DNA from: Candidatus Mycalebacterium zealandia
GTDB lineage: Bacteria; Desulfobacterota_D; UBA1144; Nemesobacterales; Mycalebacteriaceae
NCBI GenBank assembly: GCA_014075295.1
Contig: CP046180.1
Span: forward strand, 1,080,458-1,144,457
DNA: 64,000 bases
Reading direction: 5' to 3'
The notes beneath the pieces were generated by a model. That model made no database searches, was not told the origin of the DNA, and saw nothing but the letters and a program-made list of their open reading frames with translations. The translations under genes and the position numbers were made by a program. Every line of letters starts with the position of its first letter. The first letter of the stretch is position 1. Below are positions 3,097 to 42,173 of the stretch, piece by piece.

Positions 3097-5305
3097 TGGG
3101 TTTTATTTCGCCGTTTTCCAGACGCTCAAAATCCGAAGCGTTTCTGCATTTCGGGTAGCCCGAACACGCGAGAAATTCCGCGCCGTCTCGTCTGCGTTTG
3201 CGTATCACCATTGGCTTATCGCACTTTTCACAAGATATGCCCGCGTCTTCGGGTTTTTCTGTCTGTTTAACAATGATTTTATCCCCGTCCCTTTCAAAGT
3301 CCGAAGCGTTTTTGCATTTCGGATAACCCGAACACGCGAGAAATTCCACGCCGTCCCGTCTGCGTTTGCGTATCACCATCGGCTCGCCGCATTTTTCGCA
3401 CGCGATTCCGGAATCTTGAGGCGGCGCAGTCTCTTTGATTACAATTTTTCCGTCCACCCTTTCAAAGTCGGAAGCGTTTTTGCATTCGGGATAGCCGGAA
3501 CAAGAAAGAAATTCCCCGCCGCCCCGGCGGCGGTTTTTTACCACCATCGGTTTGTCGCACTTTTCGCACATGATGTCGGTTTCCTCAACATCATTCACAG
3601 CGTTTTCGGCGGTCTCAACCCTTTTCTTTAAACCCGATTCCTCGTCAAGATAGAAATCGTGCAGAAGCCCGTCCCATTTTTCGCTGCCCTGCTCAATTTT
3701 ATCAAGCCGTTGCTCCACGCTCGCGGTGAATTTTTCATCCATTATGTCGGGGAAATCTTTCACGAGATAGTCGTTGACGGCAAAGCCAAGCGGAGTTGGA
3801 AAAAGCGCCTTCTTTTCCTTGTTGACATATTCCCTGTCCTGAATTGTGGAGAGAATTGAAGCGTATGTCGAAGGGCGGCCGATGCCTTTTTTCTCAAGAT
3901 CTTTGACAAGAGACGCCTCGTTGTATCTGGGCGGCGGCTTGGTGAAATGCTGAGACGGAACAACCTCTTCGCACTTCAAATCCGCTCCTTCACTCAATGG
4001 CGGAAGAAGCGCCTCTTCCCCGTCTTTTTTCTCAGGCGGAGGCGCGGCGGCTCTCCAGCCCGCGAACACCTGAACCGTTCCGGTGGCTCTGAAAACCGCT
4101 TCTCCGGCACTGATATCGGCAGTTGTTTTTTCGTCAACGGCGGCAGACATCTGGCTTGCGGCAAACCGCTTCCAAATCAATTCGTAAAGCCGCAGTTGAT
4201 CCTTTTCAAGAAACTTCGCCATATCTTCGGGGCCTCTGAGAATTGAGGTAACCCTTATCGCTTCGTGCGCGTCCTGCGCGTCCTTGCTGACCTTTTGAAT
4301 ATTAGGTTTTGCGGGGACGAACTCCTCTCCGTATTTCTCTTTTATAAAGTCGCGCGCCTCATCAACCGCGCGCGGAGAAAGGCGCGGTGAATCGGTTCGC
4401 ATGTAAGTTATAAGACCCACGGGACCTTCAGAGCCAATTTCAATGCCCTCATAAAGCCGTTGCGCCAGATTCATTGTTTTCTTCACGGAAAAACCGAGTT
4501 TTGTTGCCGCTTCGCGCTGCAAAGTGCTGGTTATGAACGGAGATGGAGGTTTGAGATTAACCTTTTTTCTCTCAACCGATGAGATAACAAACCACTCATT
4601 TTCAATGGCGGCGACAATTTCAAGCGCCTGCTCCTCGTTGGAAATTTCGTCTTCCGAACCGCGAAAACTGCGCAGACCCGCGCTGAAAGAATCTCCTTCC
4701 TCCGTAAACAAACGCGCCTCAATCTTCCAGTATTCAACGGGGTTGAACACCTCAATCTCGCGCTCGCGTTTGACGACAAAATTGAGCGCAATGCTCTGGA
4801 CCCTGCCCGCGCTGAGCGCGCCGCCGATTTTTTTCCACAGCAGAGGACTCACCTTGTAGCCAACTATTCTGTCCAGTATGCGCCGCGCCTGCTGCGCTTC
4901 AAACTTTGATTGGTTTACCTGTTCAGTCCGCCGGAAGGTTTCAAGAACGCCCTCCTTTGTTATTTCCCGTATTAGAACGCGGTGCGCTCTGTCACCCAGT
5001 TTCAGTTGCTGAGAGATGTGCCACGCAATCGCTTCACCTTCTCTGTCGGGGTCGGTGGCGAGATAGACCTTGTCCTTGCCCTTGGCAGATTTGCGTAAAG
5101 AGTCAAGCACTTTGCCTTTGCCTTTGATAACTTCGTAATCGGGCTTGAACCCGTTGTCCAAATCAACACCGAGCTTGCCGTGGGTTTTGTCCGAAAGGTC
5201 AACAATATGGCCCACGGACGCCTCAACATCGTATTCCGTGCCGAGATACCTTTTTATCGTTTTCGCCTTGGCGGGCGATTCCACAATTACAAGTGATTTA
5301 GCCAT
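3059..5305 (-). CDS. topA: DNA topoisomerase I (type IA)
   Basis: Relaxes negative supercoils by transient single-strand cleavage. The protein has 748 residues. The TOPRIM domain at the N terminus carries the catalytic Glu9 (VESPAKAK) and the acidic cluster TDPDREGE at 85-92. The nucleophilic tyrosine is Tyr301 in ITYMRTDS. The C terminus holds three Cys4 zinc-ribbon modules of about 56 residues, each with the pattern CEKC-x(17-18)-CSGYP-x-C. They are nearly identical to each other in DNA as well as protein. The gene lies 21 bases downstream of the epimerase gene and overlaps recG. Confidence 0.97.
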   Translation of the reverse strand: MAKSLVIVESPAKAKTIKRYLGTEYDVEASVGHIVDLSDKTHGKLGVDLDNGFKPDYEVIKGKGKVLDSLRKSAKGKDKVYLATDPDREGEAIAWHISQQLKLGDRAHRVLIREITKEGVLETFRRTEQVNQSKFEAQQARRILDRIVGYKVSPLLWKKIGGALSAGRVQSIALNFVVKREREIEVFNPVEYWKIEARLFTEEGDSFSAGLRSFRGSEDEISNEEQALEIVAAIENEWFVISSVERKKVNLKPPSPFITSTLQREAATKLGFSVKKTMNLAQRLYEGIEIGSEGPVGLITYMRTDSPRLSPRAVDEARDFIKEKYGEEFVPAKPNIQKVSKDAQDAHEAIRVTSILRGPEDMAKFLEKDQLRLYELIWKRFAASQMSAAVDEKTTADISAGEAVFRATGTVQVFAGWRAAAPPPEKKDGEEALLPPLSEGADLKCEEVVPSQHFTKPPPRYNEASLVKDLEKKGIGRPSTYASILSTIQDREYVNKEKKALFPTPLGFAVNDYLVKDFPDIMDEKFTASVEQRLDKIEQGSEKWDGLLHDFYLDEESGLKKRVETAENAVNDVEETDIMCEKCDKPMVVKNRRRGGGEFLSCSGYPECKNASDFERVDGKIVIKETAPPQDSGIACEKCGEPMVIRKRRRDGVEFLACSGYPKCKNASDFERDGDKIIVKQTEKPEDAGISCEKCDKPMVIRKRRRDGAEFLACSGYPKCRNASDFERLENGEIKPIERKKSDSAQKS
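3100..3590 (-). repeat. Three tandem 168-bp repeats encoding the TopA zinc ribbons
   Basis: Matching stretches recur at 3138, 3306 and 3474, an exact 168-bp period (56 codons). The two copies nearest the 3' end of topA differ at only a few positions over more than 100 bases. The third is more diverged. Near-identity in DNA, including synonymous sites, indicates recent duplication or gene conversion of the zinc-ribbon module inside topA. Confidence 0.85.
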
Positions 5306-5326
5306 TTTTCAAATCCTTAAATAATA

Positions 5327-6313
5327 TCAAACCTCGGGCATTTCAAGGCGGCTTGCCCATTCCCTGTTTTCAAGATACCAGTCAATACAAGATTTTACGC
5401 CTTTTTTAATATCAGTTTGCGGCTCCCAGCCGAGAATTTTTTCCGCCTTTGAAATATCCGCCGCAGTGGCTTTTGAATCCGCGGGATTCATCGGCTCTTT
5501 TCTGACAACCGCCTTTTTGCTGAGTCCGTCCTCTATGAGCGCGATGATTTCGTTCAGCGAAACCACATTGCCACCTGCTATGTTTATTTGCTCAAACCCC
5601 ACATTTTTCACCGAAAGCAGTGTCGCGCGTGCGGCGTCATCAACAAATGTAAAGTCCCTGCTCTGAGTTCCGTCTCCGTAGAGAACTATCTCATTTCCTT
5701 CGGCAACCGCCCGCACAAACCGGAACACACTCATGTCGGGACGCCCCGCGGGACCGTAAACCGTAAAATACCTGAGAGCGGAAACATCTATCCCGAAAAG
5801 TTTGTGATATGAGTGGCAAAGCCCTTCACCAGCGGACTTTGAAGCCGCGTAGGGAGAAAGCGGCTTGTCGGTTTCCGAAACGGCTTCGGCAAGAGGCAGT
5901 CTTCCGTTTCCGTAAACGCTTGAAGACGATATGAACACAAACTTTTCCGTGCCGTTTTCCCTGCACGCTTCAAGCAGGTTTAGGGTACCGAGCACATTTG
6001 TTTTGTAATACTCCGCCGGAATCTCCGCGCTTCTTCTCACTCCCGCGCGCGCGGCGAGGTTGATTACCGCTTTGGGCGAAAAACCGCGCATCCCCGCGAA
6101 AAAATTCGCGACCGCGCCCGAGTCCGCGATGTCAGTTTTTTCAAATATAAACCTGTCCGATGAGAAAAGATTTCGAAGCCGTTTTTCTTTCAGCGCGGGA
6201 TCGTAAGCGTCATTCAGATTGTCCATTCCGGCAACCCTGTCTCCTCTTTCAAGCAACATCTCGCACACGCGAGCGCCGACAAATCCCGCGCAACCGGTTA
6301 CAACAAAATCCAT
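5327..6313 (-). CDS. NAD-dependent epimerase, UDP-glucuronate 4-epimerase type
   Basis: Extended short-chain dehydrogenase of 328 residues. It has the N-terminal NAD-binding TGCAGFVG motif, the SSSSVYG strand and the catalytic YAASK (Tyr-x3-Lys). The early DNLNDAYDP segment is characteristic of UDP-glucuronate 4-epimerases (CapI/WbpP-like). These interconvert UDP-glucuronate and UDP-galacturonate in the cytoplasm for lipopolysaccharide or capsule synthesis. It starts 3 bases after the UDP-glucose dehydrogenase stop, which would supply its substrate, so the two form a natural pathway pair. A UDP-glucose 4-epimerase is the main alternative, made less likely by that neighbour. Confidence 0.85.
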   Translation of the reverse strand: MDFVVTGCAGFVGARVCEMLLERGDRVAGMDNLNDAYDPALKEKRLRNLFSSDRFIFEKTDIADSGAVANFFAGMRGFSPKAVINLAARAGVRRSAEIPAEYYKTNVLGTLNLLEACRENGTEKFVFISSSSVYGNGRLPLAEAVSETDKPLSPYAASKSAGEGLCHSYHKLFGIDVSALRYFTVYGPAGRPDMSVFRFVRAVAEGNEIVLYGDGTQSRDFTFVDDAARATLLSVKNVGFEQINIAGGNVVSLNEIIALIEDGLSKKAVVRKEPMNPADSKATAADISKAEKILGWEPQTDIKKGVKSCIDWYLENREWASRLEMPEV

Positions 6314-6316
6314 TCT

Positions 6317-7624
6317 TCACGCCTCGCCAAGACAGAAGTACCGGAAACCCATATTTTTCATCTCCGCCGGTGAATAGATATTCCTTCCGTCAACAATAAC
6401 AGGGGATTTCATAATGGAAAAAATCCTGCCGAAATCCGGCTGTCTGTATTCATTCCATTCCGTGCTTATAAAAAGCGCGTCCGCACCCTCACACGCGTCG
6501 TATGGACCGCGCGCCCTTTTGACGCCGGAGGGAATGAAATCCTTTGCCGCGCCGTCAAAAGCCACAGGGTCATGAGCGCTTACTTCGGCGCCTTCGCTCA
6601 AAACCTTATTCATAATGTAAATCGCCGGAGACTCCCTGATGTCATCGGTGTTGGGCTTGAAAGATACCCCCCAGAAAGCAATTTTCACACTGCCGAGCCC
6701 GTCGGGAAACTGGCTTTTCAGTTTGTTCAGAAAAATCTCATGCTGAAGAGTGTTGACCTCGTCAACAGCCGAACAGATTCTCATATCAAATCCCTGCTTG
6801 CGCGCGGCGCCGATAACCGCTTTGATATCTTTTGGCAGACACGAACCGCCATACCCGACTCCCGGATACAGAAACTTGTCCCCAATCCTCTCGTCAGCTG
6901 CCATAACCGAGCGCACTTCTGAGACACTCGCGCCCATCTTTTCGCAAAACACCGCCATCTCATTCATAAAGGATATTCGGGTTGCGAGCATCGCATTTGA
7001 GGCATATTTGGCAATCTCCGCCGAGCGTATGGAGATGGAAATCAACCTCTCGCCACGCCTCATATACGGCAAATAGAGTTGGCGCAAAATGCCTTCTGCT
7101 TTTTCGCTGTCCGTGCCGATAACAATTCTGTCCGGACTCATAAAGTCCTTCACCGCCGTTCCCTCTTTCAAAAATTCCGGGTTGGAAGCCATATCAAAGT
7201 TTTTTCCGCCGTTTTCAAGCACAAGCCCCATGACTTTCTCCGTTGTGCCCGGCGGAACGGTGCTTTTTGTAACAATCAGTTTGTAATCGCCCCCGCAGAC
7301 CGGGCCAATCATCCGCGCGACATCAAAAACGCCGCCCAAATCCGGCTCGCCGTTTACGGACTGCGGCGTTCCCACGGCGATAAAAACAGTGTCGGACTCT
7401 AAAACGGCTTGCTCAGGCTCATTTGAAAAAGTGAGACGTCCGTCTTTGATGTTTTTTGCGACAATATCTTCAAGGTTCGGCTCATAAAACGGCACAGTCC
7501 CTTTTTTAAGAGAGGCGATTTTCTCTACATCAATGTCTGCGCAGACGACTGAGTTTCCACTGTCCGCGAGGCACGCGCCCGTAACAAGACCAACGTATCC
7601 GGTTCCTATAATTCCTACTTTCAA
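6317..7624 (-). CDS. ugd: UDP-glucose 6-dehydrogenase
   Basis: Oxidises UDP-glucose to UDP-glucuronate with two NAD+. The protein has 435 residues, a normal length. The N-terminal Rossmann motif GTGYVGL is at residues 7-13. The catalytic cysteine is in the conserved GYGGSCLPKD segment. The C-terminal UDP-binding domain includes the WNEY strand and a final VDGRN. Its partner is the adjacent epimerase, so the pair likely supplies uronic acids for surface glycans. A 63-base gap separates it from the upstream DUF1285 gene, so it may share the efflux-operon transcript or have its own promoter. Confidence 0.96.
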   Translation of the reverse strand: MKVGIIGTGYVGLVTGACLADSGNSVVCADIDVEKIASLKKGTVPFYEPNLEDIVAKNIKDGRLTFSNEPEQAVLESDTVFIAVGTPQSVNGEPDLGGVFDVARMIGPVCGGDYKLIVTKSTVPPGTTEKVMGLVLENGGKNFDMASNPEFLKEGTAVKDFMSPDRIVIGTDSEKAEGILRQLYLPYMRRGERLISISIRSAEIAKYASNAMLATRISFMNEMAVFCEKMGASVSEVRSVMAADERIGDKFLYPGVGYGGSCLPKDIKAVIGAARKQGFDMRICSAVDEVNTLQHEIFLNKLKSQFPDGLGSVKIAFWGVSFKPNTDDIRESPAIYIMNKVLSEGAEVSAHDPVAFDGAAKDFIPSGVKRARGPYDACEGADALFISTEWNEYRQPDFGRIFSIMKSPVIVDGRNIYSPAEMKNMGFRYFCLGEA

Positions 7625-26201: not shown

Positions 26202-26846
26202 ATGAACTGGATAGAAATATGTTTAGAGGCACTCCTAGCAATTTCACAAATTTCATTAGCTGTTGTTGCGTTCATTGGAATAAATTCATGGAGGCATGAA
26301 TACAAAGAGAAAAGACAAATAGAAATAGCTGAAGAAACTTTAGAATTGTTTTACAAAGTCGTAGATGTATTACAAAGCATACGAAACCCTACAGTTTATT
26401 TAGATGAAATAAAGGATATAGAACGAAAAAAAGAGGAGAACGAAAAACAATACAAAGCAAGACAAAAAGCACAAGTTTTGTTTGACCGCTACGATGAACA
26501 AATTGAAGTTTTTAATAAGATTCACTCTCTTCGCTATAGGTTTATGGCTAAGATTGGAAAAAATAAAGCAAAGCCATTTGCGGATTTGAGGCGTATTGTC
26601 CATAAAATAACAACTTCTGCAATTATTCTTAAAGATTTGTGGGGCTTGGAACGAAAGCCGGAAGACAAAACGCATTGGAAATTCGTAAGAGAGAACGAAA
26701 ACATATTTTGGGATGATAGAGATAGTAACAATCCTACCAACCTTGAAATAGAAAGAATTGTCTCAGAAATTGAAACAACTTGCGAAAAAATAATATCTGG
26801 AAAAAATAACACCCATTCTCGCTTCGGCTCAAAAGCTACCACCTAA
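26202..26846 (+). CDS. AT-rich single-pass membrane protein of unknown function
   Basis: A 214-residue protein. One hydrophobic segment at residues 8-26 is followed by charged, coiled-coil-like helices (residues 30-125). I recognise no family. The codon use is AT-rich, unlike the flanking HDO gene, so it is probably acquired. It is convergent with the SF1 helicase, with only 3 bases between stops. Its last dozen codons run antisense through the copied 3' end of the macrodomain gene, so its present C terminus was shaped by that rearrangement. It may be the membrane partner of the helicase in a defence-like system (inference). Confidence 0.65.
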   Translation: MNWIEICLEALLAISQISLAVVAFIGINSWRHEYKEKRQIEIAEETLELFYKVVDVLQSIRNPTVYLDEIKDIERKKEENEKQYKARQKAQVLFDRYDEQIEVFNKIHSLRYRFMAKIGKNKAKPFADLRRIVHKITTSAIILKDLWGLERKPEDKTHWKFVRENENIFWDDRDSNNPTNLEIERIVSEIETTCEKIISGKNNTHSRFGSKATT

Positions 26847-26865
26847 ATACTATTCATATTCCCAA
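26816..26865 (-). repeat. Copied 3' end of the macrodomain gene beyond the helicase gene
   Basis: Read on the minus strand this segment matches the 3' end of the macrodomain gene (28957-29003) at 35 of 46 aligned bases without gaps. The core GAGGTGGTGGTTTTTGAGCC has counterpart TAGGTGGTAGCTTTTGAGCC, coding VVxFEP in both. The helicase stop codon (26850-26852) lies inside it. Confidence 0.75.
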
Positions 26866-28952
26866 GTTTCACCCTCAACAAAAAAATCTTTTACACAATT
26901 CAGACTTTCAGGAAATTCATTTTCATCACGAGAAACCACGCCAAGAAAACGAGAAGCACGAGTAATGGCAACATACAAATATTTATCAATCAACTCTGGG
27001 AAAAGACTTGCCATACGTGCTATTCCCACAAGAAAAACGCCTTCAAACTCAAAACCTTTTATATGTTCTACAGGAAAAACGTAAACCCCATCTTTTGTAG
27101 ACTCGATTTTACCATCTACGGAAGCGTAAACCTCAACACCATCTTTCAAAACCTTTTGAAGCATTGATGTCATCGGCTGAACATTACTCTGTTCTGGCAC
27201 AACTACTGCAATAGCAGGTTTTTCTTCACAATACCTATAAATCTCTTGAACTCGCTTGCCAATCCATGCAACCCCTTCTTCACTTGAAGGAGCAGAATAC
27301 AATAACGGAGGAACAGGATGGACATCCTTGTTCTCAATACTGAGAAACGGAGGGTCTTCACCAATTTTGTGTTTATAAAGGGTGGCAACCATCTGAGCAA
27401 GTTTTTCACTCTGGCGATAATGCCTACCAACCTGATGAACCCGAAAATCGGAAGCAAACAAATTACACTCGGAAAATTGTTGAATTCCATTTCTCGTTAT
27501 TCGCTGCATTAAATCACCCACAAGCGTAAATGATCTAAAGCGTGGATGAGCAAGATAAAAAATACATCCCAACTGCACTGCCGAAAAATCAGAAAATTCA
27601 TCTACTGCAATTTGTGTTTTCTCGTTTATTTTAATAGTGTCGTACCAATCAATACTTTTAAAATTCTCAGGTCTTTTGCTTTCCAGAAATCTTGCATATT
27701 TCAAAACGGTAAAGTTAATGATGTCAACTTCATCAGGAGAAATTTCTTTGTTGGCAAGAGATTGTTTGTAATCAATCTCTGTATTGAAGAATTCTCCACC
27801 CTTCCCACCCCTGAAAATTCTGTAATACTCAGGAATTCTCTTAATGAAAGCGTATCTCAATTTATTAAGATCTGTTTTAACACTGTACCTCTGCCCAACG
27901 TATGAATAAAAATCTGTGGCTACTTTAGCGAGTCCGGAACTTGAAGATACGGACAGGATGTTTCTGTCTTTTTTCAGGGAAAACCCCTCTCCAGTACCTA
28001 AATAGTGGCGTTTGGCAATCTTTATGCTTTCCTCACTCCATAATTTAATTGTTTCAACATCAGCAGAAATACTTTCTTGCGACATAGCATTCTTCAAATA
28101 ATCACGAAGTCCTTGAGACGGGACATAAAGTGTCCAGTTTCGAGCATGAAATAGTTCTTTGTCTTTAGGCCGAACCAGAACGGATTCATCTTCAGAAAGA
28201 TTGTCAACGCTTGTTTTCTGTGCGAGCCTCTTAATTAGCAGAGTGGTTTTTCCAGTTCCCGGAGCTCCAGTAACAAAAATCCTTGAATTTAGAGGTGTGC
28301 GAAAAATATCATCTTGCTTTGAATCAAGAATCGGTTGATCTCTTAATTCGAATGACTGAACAGTTTTTTTCTCTCTGTCTATTGTTACCTGCTCAAGTTC
28401 TGCATCAAGAAAAAACTTTTTCAGAGATTGAACTGTCCCTCTGTCATTTCCCGTCTCAATTTTATTGTCTATTGCGTCCCAACCAGAAGATGTATTCACA
28501 GGAACAAAGAGGTTTCTCTCAACAGCACAAACTTCGTCATTGTTCGGAAGATCAATATAATCACCAAAAGGAATCGCTGCTATCCTTCCGGCAGGTGCCA
28601 AATAAGCACATAGAAAAGTGTTTTGTGATTTGGAACTGTAATTGGAAAGCATTTTTCCGTGTCTATGCACTAAATAAATTCGAGCTCCGCTTTTCCCCTC
28701 TTCATTTTCACACTCTGCTCGTACAAAACAGACAAAAGGCTCTTTAACTGCTACCTCAAGTTGTGGTATCCACTGATTACGAATTTGTGCTCTTGCTAAA
28801 ACAAGATGATCTTCTTGCCCTGAAATGTCCTCTGCAAGACTTCGATTGTTGAGAACTTGCAATTCCTGATTCGCAGACTCTGATACTGGACCTAATTCTT
28901 CCAGTATCAATTCTGACATTTCACCTATTTGCTTTGTAAATGTTTTACTCAT
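26850..28952 (-). CDS. Superfamily 1 (UvrD-like) DNA helicase, probably acquired
   Basis: A 700-residue protein. Residues 1-215 are an N-terminal region I do not recognise. The SF1 core follows: Q-motif-like LDSKQDD, Walker A GAPGTGKTT (229-237), motif II AVDEFSDFS (449-457, with DE), motif III TLVGDLMQRI (near 476), motif IV-like GRHYRQSEK (near 510) and C-terminal motif VI AITRASRFLG. Composition is AT-rich compared with the neighbouring macrodomain and permease genes. It starts six bases after the macrodomain stop, on the same strand. SF1 helicases of this shape occur in defence systems such as Gabija, but no nuclease partner is seen. An ordinary repair or HelD-like role remains possible. 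Confidence 0.8.
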   Translation of the reverse strand: MSKTFTKQIGEMSELILEELGPVSESANQELQVLNNRSLAEDISGQEDHLVLARAQIRNQWIPQLEVAVKEPFVCFVRAECENEEGKSGARIYLVHRHGKMLSNYSSKSQNTFLCAYLAPAGRIAAIPFGDYIDLPNNDEVCAVERNLFVPVNTSSGWDAIDNKIETGNDRGTVQSLKKFFLDAELEQVTIDREKKTVQSFELRDQPILDSKQDDIFRTPLNSRIFVTGAPGTGKTTLLIKRLAQKTSVDNLSEDESVLVRPKDKELFHARNWTLYVPSQGLRDYLKNAMSQESISADVETIKLWSEESIKIAKRHYLGTGEGFSLKKDRNILSVSSSSGLAKVATDFYSYVGQRYSVKTDLNKLRYAFIKRIPEYYRIFRGGKGGEFFNTEIDYKQSLANKEISPDEVDIINFTVLKYARFLESKRPENFKSIDWYDTIKINEKTQIAVDEFSDFSAVQLGCIFYLAHPRFRSFTLVGDLMQRITRNGIQQFSECNLFASDFRVHQVGRHYRQSEKLAQMVATLYKHKIGEDPPFLSIENKDVHPVPPLLYSAPSSEEGVAWIGKRVQEIYRYCEEKPAIAVVVPEQSNVQPMTSMLQKVLKDGVEVYASVDGKIESTKDGVYVFPVEHIKGFEFEGVFLVGIARMASLFPELIDKYLYVAITRASRFLGVVSRDENEFPESLNCVKDFFVEGETWEYE

Positions 28953-28956
28953 AACC

Positions 28957-29003
28957 CCTCACCTCGGCTCAAAAACCACCACCTCAACCCCATTTATATT
29001 TTC
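28957..29003 (-). repeat. Original 3' end of the macrodomain gene (repeat partner)
   Basis: The terminal codons EVVVFEPR and stop of the macrodomain gene pair with the copy at 26816-26865. The two copies bracket exactly the helicase gene. Confidence 0.7.
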
Positions 29004-29414
29004 AAACGCATTTATTATAAGCGGTTTTACTTCTTTCCAATCAAGACCGCCCAAGCCGCAACCCAGCGCCGGAATTGCGATTGATTTAATTGCGCGGGTT
29101 TCAATCTCGCGGGTAAGCGCGGAAAGTCCGCTTTCAATGTATTCAATTCTGCTTTTATCGCGGTAATGGTTTTCGGTCGGAAAGTTGATTATGAATTTCG
29201 GAAAAAGCGAGCCGGTTTCAAAAACAAACATTTCGCCCGTTTTCACCCTTCCCTGTTCGCATGCGGCGGCATAAGCATCAAAATTTTCCGCAAAACGCTT
29301 TTTGAATTGAAGCGCGAGCCCCGCGCCCATCGCGCCAACGCAGTTAACGGGATTTACCAGCGCATCCGCTTTTTCGTCAAAAATACTGCCGTCTGTTTTG
29401 TGAATAATTCCCAC
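28959..29414 (-). CDS. Macrodomain protein, DarG-like ADP-ribosyl hydrolase
   Basis: From GTG 29414 the protein has 151 residues, a single macrodomain. It shows DALVNPVNCVGAMGAGLALQF (18-37), FVFETGSL, INFPT and PALGCGLGGLDW (115-126), the pattern of the DarG antitoxin macrodomain that removes ADP-ribose from DNA. The GTG overlaps the stop of the permease gene (TAGTG), so the two are coupled. An upstream in-frame start would read into the permease region and is less likely. No DarT-type toxin is encoded in the window, so it is an orphan. Confidence 0.85.
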   Translation of the reverse strand: MGIIHKTDGSIFDEKADALVNPVNCVGAMGAGLALQFKKRFAENFDAYAAACEQGRVKTGEMFVFETGSLFPKFIINFPTENHYRDKSRIEYIESGLSALTREIETRAIKSIAIPALGCGLGGLDWKEVKPLIINAFENINGVEVVVFEPR

Positions 29415-30451
29415 TACCCCGCAAACCAACCGTTCAGGATTGCGGACAGCAAAACAATCTGCGGAACCGCAATAAGCGGAATAAAGAGCGACAGTTTCCA
29501 TGAGCGCGTGGTCTCTTTAACCGCCATAATTTCGGTGTAATCGGTCGCCGCGCCCGCCATAAGGAACGTAAACGCGTTTCCCGGCGCACCGGCGCGGTTG
29601 AGCAAATCAGCCGCAATCGGTGTTGAGCCCTCCGAGCAAACCTCAATCACGGTCGCGGCAATAACGGTTAAGCCAAGCCCCGCGAGCGTTGGACCGAAAA
29701 GATCTTCATATCCGATGTGCGACCCGAAAGTCCTGATTAAAGCGGCAAGAATCACACCGAAAAGAAGCCAGCGCAAAACGGGTTTTGAATCCCGGAACGC
29801 GGAAGCTGTGAGAAACGCCGCCGTGTTCCGGTTCAGGCGCACGGCGCGAAGAGACTCAAAAACCGCGCCCAAACCCCCTTCCGCCGGCTGAACCGCGTTC
29901 GGATTGGGCGGCACAACGGCGTTTTTTTCAAGCCGTATGAAAACAAGCCCCGTGATAAACGCCACAACCACCGACAGAGCGATAAACACAAGCGTCCACC
30001 ACACGCCCGCAAGCGCGATAAGAACAAAAGTGAGCGAAAGCGAATTCCACGGGCTCGCGAGCAGAAAGGCGGCAACCTGCCCCATGCTCGCGCCGCGCTC
30101 ATACAACTTCACTCCGAGCAAAACTACTCCGTGATTGCAAACATCAAAAAACACGCCCGCGAAAACGGCGCGCGCTATGCCTCCCGCGCTGTGTCCGCCG
30201 CCGAGAACGGACGCAACCGCCTCGCGCGGAACAAGTGAGATAAAAGCGATTGAAATAACGCCGAGAGCGATTCCCGGCAGAACCGTGTTGGTTATTTCAC
30301 GCACGGCAAAGGTTAAATCCCCAAACAACGCGCTGCGTGCGGGAATAAAATCCGCGCAGTAAAGCAAAACCACAACGGACAAAGACGCCCAGAAAAACCA
30401 GTCAAAAGATTCGGGATTGTGGCAACAGCCGTGCTCGCACTCTTCGGGCAT
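29414..30451 (-). CDS. Permease of the DUF318/SO_0444 family (putative metal efflux)
   Basis: A 345-residue integral membrane protein with about eight to nine hydrophobic helices in two similar halves. Each half has a conserved loop (FFDVCNHGVVL; VIEVCSEGSTPIAADLL) as in the DUF318 permeases. The N terminus EECEHGCCHNP is rich in Cys and His and could bind metal. The SO_0444 branch is annotated as copper/zinc efflux. Transport of a metal or metalloid is a reasonable but unproven reading. It lies 10 bases downstream of tRNA-Ser. Confidence 0.75.
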   Translation of the reverse strand: MPEECEHGCCHNPESFDWFFWASLSVVVLLYCADFIPARSALFGDLTFAVREITNTVLPGIALGVISIAFISLVPREAVASVLGGGHSAGGIARAVFAGVFFDVCNHGVVLLGVKLYERGASMGQVAAFLLASPWNSLSLTFVLIALAGVWWTLVFIALSVVVAFITGLVFIRLEKNAVVPPNPNAVQPAEGGLGAVFESLRAVRLNRNTAAFLTASAFRDSKPVLRWLLFGVILAALIRTFGSHIGYEDLFGPTLAGLGLTVIAATVIEVCSEGSTPIAADLLNRAGAPGNAFTFLMAGAATDYTEIMAVKETTRSWKLSLFIPLIAVPQIVLLSAILNGWFAG

Positions 30452-36316: not shown

Positions 36317-36867
36317 GCGAAGAAATAAGAAATCAAACTGCGGAAAAAATGGGCAAAACCATTTCCGCGCTGGAAGGCGAGTTGTCAAAACTTCGCACGG
36401 GAAAAGCGTCAACGGGTTTGCTTGAAGGGCTGGAGGTTAATTATCACGGCGCGAAAATGCCGCTTAATCAGGTCGCGGGAATAACCTCGCCCGACCCGCA
36501 AACGGTGATGATTCAGCCGTGGGACGAAACCGTCATAGGCGATATTGAAAAAGCGGTTAATCAATCAGACCTCGGTCTCACGCCCGCACGGGACGGAAAA
36601 ATGATACGAATTTCAATTCCGCCACTCAGCGAAGAGCGGCGCACCGAACTTGTAAAAATCGCAAGCAGAATAGCCGAAGACCACCGCGTTTCCATACGGC
36701 AGACAAGAAAGGATTTGAACACAAAGGTAAAAGCGATGGAAAAAGAGGGAATGAGCGAAGACGAAAGTAAAAAAGCACTGTCCGACATTCAAAAATCAAC
36801 CGATGAGTTTATCTCCAAAATAAACTCGCTTGTGGAAAAGAAAGAAAAAGAGATTATGGAGATTTAG
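36313..36867 (+). CDS. frr: Ribosome recycling factor
   Basis: Splits post-termination ribosomes with EF-G. From ATG 36313 it has 184 residues and includes LRTGKAST, the [14 protein letters not shown] stretch and [10 protein letters not shown]. The start overlaps the pyrH stop. The upstream in-frame region belongs to pyrH in another frame. In the 175-base gap that follows I see no gene I recognise and no clear terminator. Confidence 0.97.
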
Positions 36868-37042: not shown

Positions 37043-39895
37043 TTAGTCCTCCATATTCAAAAAATCAAAATGTCCTCGTCGAAGAAGATTTTCCCGTGCT
37101 TGTTCGGCGTTGTTTCTCACTTCAGGATTCTCATCTTTAAGCCCTGCATTTAGAATTATTCTGGCTTGATCAACCCGAACATAGGTAGTTTTATCTATAG
37201 CACCTGTCAATCCGGCAAAACACTCAACAACAAGAGATGGGTTACTTTCTAACATTTCACACAAAGATTCTGTCAAAATAGAAAATTCAATATCTTCGAA
37301 ATCCTTAACGATGTTGAGAATACTCAACAAAGATTTCAGTCTCCATTCAACATCTAAACACTCAGCCTTCATCCAGAAAGCGAACTCATGTAATTCATCC
37401 TGATCCTTAAAGGTCAAACGCCAATCGAAAAACTCAACTACTCTTTTTTTGAGTTTTTCATCAAGTTTTTCCCCAGTATGCTTGCCTGTATGATAAAATA
37501 GCTTCGCCCAATACTTTTTTTCAGTTTTTTGATAATACTTGTTGAGCAAACTCTCCTGACTACCAATTGAACACTCTTCAAGTAGATAACAATCGAACAA
37601 ATAGCAACCTAGCCCATTTACCAACATTCTAGATATTTTGCTCTCTTGTTTTTTGATTTCATCCAAATTTTCAAGGGTAAATTCAAGTTCATTACGAACA
37701 ACATCAACAATGGGTACCCAGGGATTATTGTCGAGAAAATTTCCAAAAGATTCAATAAATTCACAAAGATTGCCTTGAGGAAAGAAAAAAGATTTGTTAT
37801 CAGAAGCCCATTGTTTATCTAACAAATAAATATTTTGATAGCAAGATCCTAAAATTGCATACTCAGGAAGTGTTAACGGATGGGCACACATTCTTCGGGT
37901 TTCAAGAATTTGTGTAACTTCTTGCACATTAGAATTTTCGCCTGAATGCTTCCTAATCCACCAACCAAAACTCACCAAGGTTTCCAATGCTCTGCAACGA
38001 GTATTGTTAATTGCTTCATCGAGACTACTATCTCCATCAATCAAAACCGGACGCTGTTCATCCAGCCTCCAATCGTATTGAGTGCAAAGCAATTCCAGCA
38101 ACTTAGCAAGTCTTTCACGTTTAGAAAGTGGTGTTTTTACGTTCTCCTTCAAACATTCACTTATCAGGTCACCTACAGCAAAACGTGAACTTGACCAGTC
38201 AGGTGTATCGAATGATTTTTCATTCTCAAATTCTCCCGATTGACTTTCATGTGACAACACCCATTCACACAAATCAAAACACTGGTCTATTTTTTCAAGG
38301 TTGCCAGATTTGATTCTCTCTTGAAAAGCTTGAATAAACGAACGAACATAAATCGGGCGACGAATTTGTTCGCGGTGATTTATCCAGAATCGAAATCTTG
38401 AATTGTCCTGAATAATTTCTTCCTCTAAAAGCATTTGAAATTCACTTGCAAGAGATCTAATGTTAATCTCAACAAACCAATCATCAGTATCTCTATGGGT
38501 GTCTTCCCATTCATTTACAAAATTTAAGATTTCTTCATCCGATAACTTCGCAAGTTCATCTCTGGATTTGGGGCTCCGGTCTTTTATTGCTCCTACTACA
38601 ACTCTCCCTGAAACATAATCTTTGTCGGCAAGAAGAGTTTCTTTTGAACTTGTGAGACTCTGAAAATAAGTTAGATATTTCCCGTACAGCACATTTTTAA
38701 ATGGGGTGAGTTGACACTTGTGCAAATGTTTTTGTTGTTTAATAAACTTTTCTTCTGAGCAATTGTCACCCATGGAATCACGAAATTCTTTTTTTGATGG
38801 ACCATTTATTATCCTTTCAAAAATTTCTGCTCTTTTTTCTTCCGGCAAAAACCCATATCCAAAATGCTCGCATGCACAACGAATCATTTTTTGAAACTCA
38901 GAACTATAAGAATGGACACCATAGTCTTGATGTGAAAGAACAAAATCAAGAATCCAAGGCTTAGTTTGTTCGTTTACATTGAATGAGTACAAATGCTGAC
39001 GAACTCGTTGAAAAATCCTCCAGTGTTTTTCTCGTAATTTTCCATCTAATTCTGCTACCGAATCTGGCATTTGTTCATAGGTTTTTTCACATGCATAGGT
39101 CATTGCGTGAACAAGATCTCTCTTAGGTTCATTGTAGAAACCTTTTTCTTTTCTCAATGTTGCACACCAAATCCTCGACTTGTCATAAGATTTTCTTTCA
39201 TAAATCTCCCTCATCTCAATCATTCTGTCTACTTCATCAATCAAAAGATTAGCAACTTGAAAAGGCTCCTTGTCTGTCAGAAAAGAAACTCCTTTCTCAA
39301 GTATCTGTCGGTATTCAAAATCACTAAACATAGTACGAGGCTCTAAAATTCCATCGTAGCCTGGATTCTTTTTGCGCCTTCTTTCATTGTCACTATCTGG
39401 AGAAAATTTGATGAGTTCCTTAGTAAAATTCAATGCAACTTTAATCTGATTCTCCTGTGTCCAATGCATTAATAAGTTTGAGCATCTTTCATTCGAATAC
39501 GCAATATAATAATCAGTATCAAAATATTCGAGAATCTTTGATTCAAGTTTTGCCGAATGTTCTCCACTGAGTTCTAGTGCAATATCAATAATATCTTCAC
39601 AGATTCTCGTGTTATTAGTCTGAGGAATTTTTAATAAAATTTCGACTACATCTTCCGGTTCATTTTTTGCCACATTCTTGAGATAACGCAATTCTGGCCA
39701 CCAAGGCAATTGAACACTATGATCTGACAATTTCCGTATTGGTGGAGGAGAAGCAAAATATCCGCGCTCTTTTAAAGGTTTTACCCACAAAGGATTTTGT
39801 AATCTAGTAAAGAAATACTGACGATCATTCTCCTTTTTAACAAAAGCCAGAGCTTTCTTAACCATTTCATCCGTTGGTTTTTCGTAAGATTTCAT
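37043..39895 (-). CDS. Large AT-rich helical-repeat-like protein of unknown function
   Basis: A 950-residue soluble protein, strongly AT-rich compared with frr and serS on either side, so most likely acquired. I recognise no enzymatic motif; no P-loop is present. Many stretches look like amphipathic helix pairs, such as the N-terminal WPELRYLKNVAKNEPEDVVE and the C-terminal DENPEVRNNAEQARENLL, which has a HEAT-repeat flavour. Its start overlaps the 3' end of the 211-residue gene by 29 bases, so the two form an operon. Helical-repeat proteins of this size are common as sensors or scaffolds in defence systems. That role here is inference only. Confidence 0.65.
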   Translation of the reverse strand: MKSYEKPTDEMVKKALAFVKKENDRQYFFTRLQNPLWVKPLKERGYFASPPPIRKLSDHSVQLPWWPELRYLKNVAKNEPEDVVEILLKIPQTNNTRICEDIIDIALELSGEHSAKLESKILEYFDTDYYIAYSNERCSNLLMHWTQENQIKVALNFTKELIKFSPDSDNERRRKKNPGYDGILEPRTMFSDFEYRQILEKGVSFLTDKEPFQVANLLIDEVDRMIEMREIYERKSYDKSRIWCATLRKEKGFYNEPKRDLVHAMTYACEKTYEQMPDSVAELDGKLREKHWRIFQRVRQHLYSFNVNEQTKPWILDFVLSHQDYGVHSYSSEFQKMIRCACEHFGYGFLPEEKRAEIFERIINGPSKKEFRDSMGDNCSEEKFIKQQKHLHKCQLTPFKNVLYGKYLTYFQSLTSSKETLLADKDYVSGRVVVGAIKDRSPKSRDELAKLSDEEILNFVNEWEDTHRDTDDWFVEINIRSLASEFQMLLEEEIIQDNSRFRFWINHREQIRRPIYVRSFIQAFQERIKSGNLEKIDQCFDLCEWVLSHESQSGEFENEKSFDTPDWSSSRFAVGDLISECLKENVKTPLSKRERLAKLLELLCTQYDWRLDEQRPVLIDGDSSLDEAINNTRCRALETLVSFGWWIRKHSGENSNVQEVTQILETRRMCAHPLTLPEYAILGSCYQNIYLLDKQWASDNKSFFFPQGNLCEFIESFGNFLDNNPWVPIVDVVRNELEFTLENLDEIKKQESKISRMLVNGLGCYLFDCYLLEECSIGSQESLLNKYYQKTEKKYWAKLFYHTGKHTGEKLDEKLKKRVVEFFDWRLTFKDQDELHEFAFWMKAECLDVEWRLKSLLSILNIVKDFEDIEFSILTESLCEMLESNPSLVVECFAGLTGAIDKTTYVRVDQARIILNAGLKDENPEVRNNAEQARENLLRRGHFDFLNMED

Positions 39896-40502
39896 CTATC
39901 TCTCCAAACCTCTCAGATTCCCTGCTAGCAACTACATACAACAAATCATCTAATTGTCTAAAGTGATTCTCAACATAATCACTACTGTCTGGGTTCAGTC
40001 TGCCTTTGTGGGCGTGTACGTTAGAGTTAAAAAATTTCTTTGCTTCCCGCCAAGGTCTCAAAAAATTCTCGGGAATTTCATCTTTGAAAGAGTAATCAAG
40101 AAGTTCAGAAAAGAACAAGTCTGATTTATTTTCTGCTCTCAGTCTCCCAGCATGGTGTTGTTTAAGTAATTTCTTAATCGGCAAGAGAACCTCATAGGGT
40201 ACAGAGTGTTCTTTGTCCTTGAGGGGCAATTCTAGAGGTTTAAAATGAGATTCCCATTTTTCCAATATTTTATCGGATAGTTGACTGTACTGAACTTGAC
40301 TTCTTTGAATCCCTCCCAATTCGGAAGGAAGACCATTCATCAATTCTCTTCCAGCATGGGAGACAAAACTTACATATCCACTGGTTTTGTTTTTGAGAAG
40401 GAAAACTGCTCCTTTGTACAATTCGGCAAATATAGAAAGTTCTTTTTTCATCAACCATTTAAACACGGTATTCTGTTTATCATTAAGCATTCCTTTTAAC
40501 AA
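39867..40502 (-). CDS. AT-rich 211-residue protein of unknown function, possibly HEPN-like
   Basis: A soluble, helical protein starting at ATG 40502. The N-terminal part (KKELSIFAELYKGAVFLL ... SHAGRELMNGLP) and the C-terminal RPWREAKKFFNSNVHAHKG (149-167) are the most distinctive pieces. The His-rich end could be a HEPN-type R-x-H ribonuclease motif, but the spacing is not canonical. It is translationally coupled to the 950-residue gene. Upstream, its leader is the copied 3' end of serS. Acquired by composition and position. Confidence 0.6.
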   Translation of the reverse strand: MLKGMLNDKQNTVFKWLMKKELSIFAELYKGAVFLLKNKTSGYVSFVSHAGRELMNGLPSELGGIQRSQVQYSQLSDKILEKWESHFKPLELPLKDKEHSVPYEVLLPIKKLLKQHHAGRLRAENKSDLFFSELLDYSFKDEIPENFLRPWREAKKFFNSNVHAHKGRLNPDSSDYVENHFRQLDDLLYVVASRESERFGEIDEILRKTNG

Positions 40503-40504
40503 AT

Positions 40505-40551
40505 TGCACTCCTCTCATATACCCCGCAAGTGCGTCCGGAATTTTAACGCT
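40505..40551 (-). repeat. Copied 3' end of serS
   Basis: Read on the minus strand this codes [12 protein letters not shown], against [13 protein letters not shown] at the true serS end (40790-40840). Thirty of 37 bases match without gaps in the core, and similarity continues after a small insertion. The DUF2442 stop codon (40551-40553) adjoins it. Confidence 0.8.
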
Positions 40552-40787
40552 TAACCTCTCACCGAATCCAAATACAGCGTATCAGGACATATATCCTGAT
40601 CATTGGGCCAAACAACCGTTCCATCTAAAACGGTCGCTTTTTGAAAGTATTGTTTGTCCTTTAACTCAGCAAAAACCCCAAAATCCAACAAATCCGAGCA
40701 GTCATACAAACCACGCTCCCCGTTATCAAAAACAAGTTGAAGTTTGCAGTCTTCCGTTGTGCTGACTTCTTTTACTCTTGGATTAAT
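40551..40787 (-). CDS. DUF2442 protein without a standard start codon
   Basis: An open frame of 78 codons ends at 40551. The product runs NPRVKEVSTTEDCKLQLVF, then DNGERGLYDCSDLL, then VVWPNDQDICPDTLYLDS, which is a complete DUF2442 domain (the family usually starts NPRV-like). No ATG, GTG or TTG precedes it in frame after the upstream stop. The only candidate is ATT at 40787-40785, overlapping the serS stop. It is therefore either started at ATT, translated by coupling from serS, or a nearly intact pseudogene. No DUF4160 partner is present. It lies between serS and the copy of the serS 3' end. Confidence 0.6.
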   Translation of the reverse strand: MNPRVKEVSTTEDCKLQLVFDNGERGLYDCSDLLDFGVFAELKDKQYFQKATVLDGTVVWPNDQDICPDTLYLDSVRG

Positions 40788-42052
40788 TAATCAATCCTCT
40801 CCACTCCCATATACTCAACAAGCGCATCGGGAATTTTCACGCTTCCGTCTTTTTGCTGGTAGTTTTCAAGAATTGCCACAACGGTGCGGCCAATCGCGAG
40901 CCCGGAACCGTTAAGCGTGTGAACAAACGCCGTTTTTTTGCCATCTTTGAATCTTATTCCCGCCCTTCTCGCCTGAAAATCCTCAAAATTACTGCACGAG
41001 GAAATTTCCCTGTACGCGCCCTCTCCCGGTAGCCAGACTTCAATGTCGTATGTTTTCGCGGCGGAAAACCCCATATCGCCCGCGCAGAGAGTTACAACGC
41101 GGTAATGAAGCCCCAATTTTTCCAAAATCCCGCACGCGTCCGCCATTAAGCTTTCCAACTCGTCATACGAATTTTCCGGACGCGCGAACTTGACCAACTC
41201 AACCTTGTTGAACTGATGCTGTCGCATAATGCCCTTTGTGTCTTTGCCGTATGAACCCGCCTCTTTGCGGAAACACGGCGTATGAGCAACGTATTTAAGC
41301 GGCAAGTCGCCTGAAATAACTTCATCGCGGTAAATGTTGGTAACAGGAACCTCGGCTGTCGGAATAAGAAAATAGTCCGTGCCGGAAAGTTTGAACAGAT
41401 CGTCCTCAAATTTCGGCAGATTACCCGTTCCGGTCAAACTTGCGGTGTTTGCCGCAAACGGCGGAAGCGTTTCCGTGTAGCCGTTTTCCTTTGTGTGAAT
41501 ATCAAGCATGAAGTTCGCGAGCGCACGTTCAAGCCGCGCACCCGCACCGAAATAAAGCGCGAAACGCGAACCGGTGATTTTCGCCGCGCGCTCAAGGTCA
41601 AGAATTCGGAGTTTTTCCCCGATTTGGTCGTGAAGCAGAGGCTCAAAATCAAATTCGGGCTTTTCGCCCCACTTTCTCACTTCAATGTTGTCGCCCGCTC
41701 CCGCTCCCGCGGGAACACTTTCGTGCGGAATGTTCGGAATTATGAGCATTTCGGTTCTGATTTTCTCCTCAATTTCCGTCCGGTCGGAATTGAGCGATTT
41801 CACTTTTTCTGAAACGGTTTTGAGTTCATCGGAGAGTTTTTCAAACCCTTTGTCGTCGCCCTTTTGTTTGAGAGCCGCCATTTCGCGCGAACCCTCATTG
41901 CGCTTGCGCTCCAGCTCCTCAACCTGCCCTATAACTTCGCGGCGGCGGCTCAAAAGCGGTGAAATCCCCGCAAAATCAAAGTCAAAACCGCGCGCGGACA
42001 GTTTTTTCTTCACTTCATCAAGATTTTGTTCAACAAATTTCCAGTCAAGCAT
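40787..42052 (-). CDS. serS: Seryl-tRNA synthetase
   Basis: Class II synthetase of 421 residues from ATG 42052 ([14 protein letters not shown]), which matches family starts. A longer in-frame start lies in non-conserved sequence. Motif 2 is [15 protein letters not shown] with [11 protein letters not shown], and motif 3 is [17 protein letters not shown]. The N-terminal coiled-coil arm is present. The 3' end is duplicated downstream of an inserted DUF2442 frame. Confidence 0.97.
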
Positions 42053-42144
42053 GGAAACGGTTCCGCCTGCGAATAAAGATACAGAATAACACAAAACCGG
42101 ACGGGAAAACCCCTGACTGATTGCTTTGACAATGAACCCGCCTT

Positions 42145-42173
42145 TTGACAATAAAAATGGGCGCGGTTAGTTT
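42145..42173 (+). promoter_or_regulatory. Possible promoter of the UPF0173-ald-bamD-mtnA run
   Basis: A perfect TTGACA (42145-42150) is followed after 17 bases by TAGTTT (42168-42173), a weak -10. The next gene starts at 42207 with GAGGAGG upstream. A second TTGACA lies 20 bases earlier. Confidence 0.35.

Follow-up and report, generated by a model that had tools for sequence, protein, structure and literature searches.

What are the two AT-rich genes that lie between frr and serS in this genome, and do they form a defence system, as a sequence-only reading of the locus had proposed? In the window, i.e. the whole stretch of 64,000 nucleotides that was analysed, both genes are located on the minus strand with p2 upstream and p1 downstream, and the following features are of importance here:

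p1: 37043..39895, minus strand, 950 codons, predicted DSR1-type C-terminal helical solenoid (putative sensor) without SIR2
p2: 39867..40502, minus strand, 211 codons from a TTG start, all-helical putative effector
p2/p1 overlap: 39867..39895, minus strand, 29 nt, the end of p2 being the start of p1
DUF2442 open reading frame: 40551..40790, minus strand, between serS and p2, match to PF10387 with E=6.3e-14, no ATG, GTG or TTG start

Both reading frames are intact and have full-length homologues (39–46% identity for p1, 37–44% for the close p2 set), confirming the AT-rich pair of 211 and 950 codons with a 29-base overlap that had been read from the letters alone. The pair is flanked by rpsB-tsf-pyrH-frr on one side (frr ends at 36867) and by serS (40787–42151) on the other. 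Its GC content is 0.371 for p2 and 0.361 for p1, and GC3 is 0.349 and 0.294, respectively, compared to 0.50–0.60 in frr, pyrH, tsf, rpsB and serS. The overlapping DNA is read as ..EILEETNx* in one frame and as MKSWKKPT.. in the second, an arrangement suggestive of translational coupling. The TTG at 40502 has a better ribosome-binding site (Shine-Dalgarno) than the in-frame ATG at 40490 (207 aa), yet the latter may be the true start of p2, as p2 relatives begin with 'MLT..QQTVF'; all p2 residue numbers given below follow the 211-aa (TTG-start) numbering.

The slot next to serS, a possible hotspot of insertion, varies in content within the order. In agreement with the earlier reading, genes of phages, transposons or conjugation were not observed there, and no integration marks were found around it, the direct repeats being only short and imperfect. 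The DUF2442 open reading frame is probably a remnant or a bystander; an alignment by eye with typical starts of this family showed a possible ATT start at 40785–40787, overlapping the serS stop. In a genome of the same genus (G001; L061:1604-4244) the cassette behind serS consists of an AAA/DUF3696 ATPase, an unknown 178-aa protein and an RNA ligase, and in genome G003 a histidine kinase is flanked by frr and serS. The window also contains a second AT-rich patch (26202–28952, GC 0.34–0.39, GC3 about 0.29) with a 214-aa open reading frame without family match and a 700-aa UvrD-like helicase, adjoined by a macro-domain gene (28959–29501).

Searched alone, p1 gave no confident match to any Pfam, NCBIfam or PADLOC family (DUF7674 matched below the cut-off with E=0.0016). 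As a family it is more informative: 13 of 17 members match the PADLOC Dsr1 model (PDLC04166; best L008, 1.4e-54), and these matches begin near position 300 of the model and extend towards its end (1227 positions in all). Using hhalign, the p1-family profile matched L032, a complete DSR1 with a confirmed SIR2_2 domain, with 99.8% probability (E=3.7e-28, 844 columns), and the alignment begins just past the SIR2 and covers DSR1 residues 314–1229. A profile built from close p1 homologues alone still reached 97.3% (2.1e-11), compared to 0.0–0.2% for reversed and shuffled control profiles. Neither p1 nor p2 shows a SIR2 family match and p1 starts directly at the solenoid. Judged from these profile comparisons, p1 is a homologue of the DSR1 sensor region that lacks the SIR2 NADase. 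Its AlphaFold2 model is a helical solenoid with a mean pLDDT of 81, for which the fold search returned generic HEAT/ARM solenoids only (TM about 0.3 or less), and the predicted model of p2 is all-helical with a mean pLDDT of 72.6, which bears out the earlier assignment of both proteins as helical. A sequence search of the PDB with the family profiles of p1 and p2 gave nothing convincing.

p1 is present as a single copy in its 1.16-Mb genome. The phylum of the window is small, and of its 58 genomes covered here the 57 others contain no relative of p1. A pattern scan in which each GTDB species was represented by one genome, with p1 and two closer relatives as queries, identified 13 loci at 39–45% identity in Poribacteria, Nitrospirales (Nitrospirota), Chloroflexota and metagenome-assembled Gemmatimonadetes/Gemmatimonadota genomes, and a profile search of 387 genomes added further, more distant p1 relatives; none were found in the phage genomes or viral contigs searched. 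A p2 gene directly precedes p1 in L008, L009, L010, L019–L028 and L031, and the overlap is 38 nt in L010 and 29 nt in all the others. As the relatives come from several phyla, nearly always with p2 upstream and almost always with the 29-nt overlap, the arrangement does not result from chance and p2-p1 is a real conserved unit. In the phylogenetic tree p1 of the window is located beside proteins of other phyla with moderate support. Composition, patchy presence and tree together indicate a horizontal acquisition of the pair, and the recent gain proposed earlier is supported by the low GC and GC3 as well as by the absence from the other 57 genomes of the phylum.

The same type of solenoid was also found with other modules at its N-terminal side. 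In L032 it is fused to SIR2, and L035/L064 (G040:C2:20142-23808), from a genome of the same order as the window, represents a split DSR1 in which a SIR2 gene (323 aa) and a solenoid gene (941 aa) overlap (profile match 98.3%). A PIN_12 domain is fused to the solenoid in L007 (E=1.7e-21), with which L030 groups by its N-terminal sequence and in the tree, and on two haloarchaeal plasmids AAA_16 is fused with a C-terminal p1-like solenoid (L002:2796-6887, L004:3838-7932). p2-like domains themselves occur as N-terminal fusions in L003, L011/L069 and L029. The last of these (3235–6837), in which a p2-like, pP_pnuc_1-like domain is joined to a p1 solenoid, nests with its solenoid in the clade of the split pairs but its fused domain is only 18% identical to p2 of the window, which suggests that the effector was exchanged within a recent lineage. 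Going by these domain assignments, the effector slot on the DSR1-type solenoid is exchangeable and accepts SIR2, PIN, AAA/STAND and p2-like modules. The suggestion that the two genes represent an effector/sensor pair is thus supported by the gene order, the conserved overlap, the p2-like fusions and the occurrence of SIR2, PIN and AAA/STAND at the same place.

The sequence-only reading had asked how often homologues co-occur inside defence islands. In nine of the 15 loci whose flanks could be read, the pair or its fused form is an immediate neighbour of restriction or DISARM-like genes, an uncontrolled count on relatives picked without regard to their neighbourhood, among which the loci from Poribacteria are partly dependent on one another:

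L065: type I, in the order hsdM, hsdS, p2, p1 and a C-terminal piece of HsdR
L020, L026 and L029: type III, the pair or fusion being located between mod and res
L022: type III, res downstream
L024: Eco57I type
L025: N6/N4 methylase-HNH
L067 (1-12743, G102): Druantia/DISARM/Dpd-like (DrmD-like) helicases and a DrmMI-type methylase, then p2-p1, then a trypsin-like/NTPase gene
L068: type IIG with AbiE

In L069 SIR2 and PifA-like genes are found a few genes off, and five of the readable loci (L019, L021, L027, L028 and L066) show no defence neighbour. Together with the homology of p1 to the DSR1 sensor, these neighbourhoods lend good support to the defence role that had been proposed. The positions between mod and res, after hsdS or after DrmMI would also fit an accessory module that regulates the restriction enzyme or backs it up, for example when restriction is blocked, and that does not act autonomously, since it is an established idea that restriction-like loci employ endoRNases as a last resort or as backup effectors (PMC12839542; PMC3710099). 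However, no restriction-modification or other defence gene adjoins the pair in the window, so that the association is not constant, the window and the five loci named above being without it; the neighbouring restriction types are too different for a specific subunit, and in the window genome N6/N4 methylases are located elsewhere and a PF02384 methylase is absent. We therefore regard a mere accessory function as unlikely.

We rather consider it probable that the two genes encode an abortive-infection system following the DSR1 plan, in which p1 senses and p2 kills. p2 and p1 would be made in coupled amounts and form a complex, in which p1 would hold p2 inactive until a component of the invader is bound. 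DSR2 recognises the phage tail tube protein through its middle and C-terminal domains, and this binding activates its SIR2 (PMC11087589); by analogy the trigger of p1 could be a phage structural protein. As DSR2 is described as acting alone and the C-termini of DSR1 and DSR2 as showing limited homology (PMC10973363), its trigger cannot simply be transferred to p1. Released p2 would then act as a toxin that stops the infected cell, and the pair might in this way protect against phage. A small gene with an overlapping partner, horizontal spread and an adjoining DUF2442 remnant would also be found in a toxin-antitoxin system without a dedicated phage sensor, a selfish element with p2 as toxin and p1 as large antitoxin. 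We hold this for quite improbable, because p1 shares homology with a defence sensor and also occurs fused to PIN, SIR2 and AAA, which is not an antitoxin architecture, and because 950 aa would be unusually large for an antitoxin.

In the proposed sensor-killer pair p2 is probably an all-helical toxin and nuclease. An alignment of 18 diverse p2 sequences showed R52 and H163 to be invariant and Y29 and H49 to be nearly so, and the favoured activity is most likely that of a nuclease with H49, R52 and H163 as putative active residues. The fold search with p2 gave no match with E≤0.001, Csm6/Csx1 occurring only among the insignificant matches. HEPN RNases, which are common in restriction-modification loci (PMC3710099), are likewise all-helical, and p2 shares with them an invariant histidine after a late helix. 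H49xxR52 and H163 are present in p2, but the Rx4-6H motif that defines HEPN (PMC3710099) is missing around H163 in the p2 alignment and a significant fold match is lacking as well; the 'HEPN-suggestive' reading of the His-rich end of p2 thus found no support from motif or fold. Since families with displaced arginine or histidine are on record (PMC3710099), p2 may still be a degenerate HEPN-derived domain with displaced arginine. A 'GA....RE' helix and a late histidine are common to the p2 relatives and to pP_pnuc_1 (PF18165), a predicted pPIWI-associating nuclease. Three p2 relatives match this family weakly (best E=4.7e-6); L029 reaches 22.1 bits, which is below the curated cut-off of 26.3. 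p2 of the window shows no match to it or to any other Pfam family, the profile comparison of p2 with pP_pnuc_1 gave 16% only, and no PIWI gene lies near the pair. Weak matches of p2 relatives were also obtained to the PADLOC model Aga_Nuclease (best E=5.1e-4). PD-lambda-3_B, a Ymh-like HEPN protein, was rejected as identity of p2: p2 searched by itself matched with E=0.0018, only one of the 18 relatives matches, and the profile comparison with five strong matches of the family model gave only 0.2–0.5%. That p2 is instead a non-catalytic adaptor or DNA/RNA-binding partner and that the pair blocks phage by binding would agree with the lack of a recognised catalytic motif and of a confident fold match but is the least probable explanation, as R52 and H163 are invariant and H49 nearly invariant over 18 divergent sequences, p2-like domains are fused exactly at the position of the SIR2 and PIN enzymes, and relatives weakly match a predicted nuclease family.

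DSR proteins have been described as single-gene SIR2 systems. If our interpretation as a sensor-killer pair is true, the DSR1 sensor could be detached from NAD+ depletion and a single sensor fold wired to different killers, in one or two proteins, offering natural material for studying how the sensor passes on its signal. p2 would then probably be a new effector family, and a 'Dsr1' annotation by the C-terminus alone may hide other effectors. A broader picture, which we put forward tentatively and hold for slightly more doubtful than probable, would be that the solenoid of DSR1 serves as a general invader sensor that can be transferred and that cooperates, in cis or in trans, with four or more kinds of modules, that p2 represents an effector family not yet characterised in which H..R...H forms the active site, and that the split pair moves as a backup module and inserts into unrelated restriction systems. 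We found no description of the p2-p1 pair in the literature, although a subscription paper or preprint might have escaped us; calling the system undescribed was nevertheless only half right, as p1 belongs to the known DSR1 sensor family.

Among the known systems, DSR2 resembles the pair in outline, with a helical solenoid as sensor and the effector at its N-terminal side (PMC11087589), but the pair has no SIR2, p1 showed no sequence match to the solved DSR2 in the PDB search, and DSR2 is not among the 50 best fold matches listed. The closer likeness is to DSR1, as p1 matches the whole region behind its SIR2 (about 305–1229) and the order of effector and sensor from N- to C-terminus is the same. 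The pair differs from it in having two genes instead of one and, in place of SIR2, a separate small all-helical protein from another family as its putative effector. As the defining SIR2 is absent the pair is not a DSR1 proper, and from its sequences it is most likely a relative of DSR1 that is split and lacks SIR2, with a predicted role in defence.
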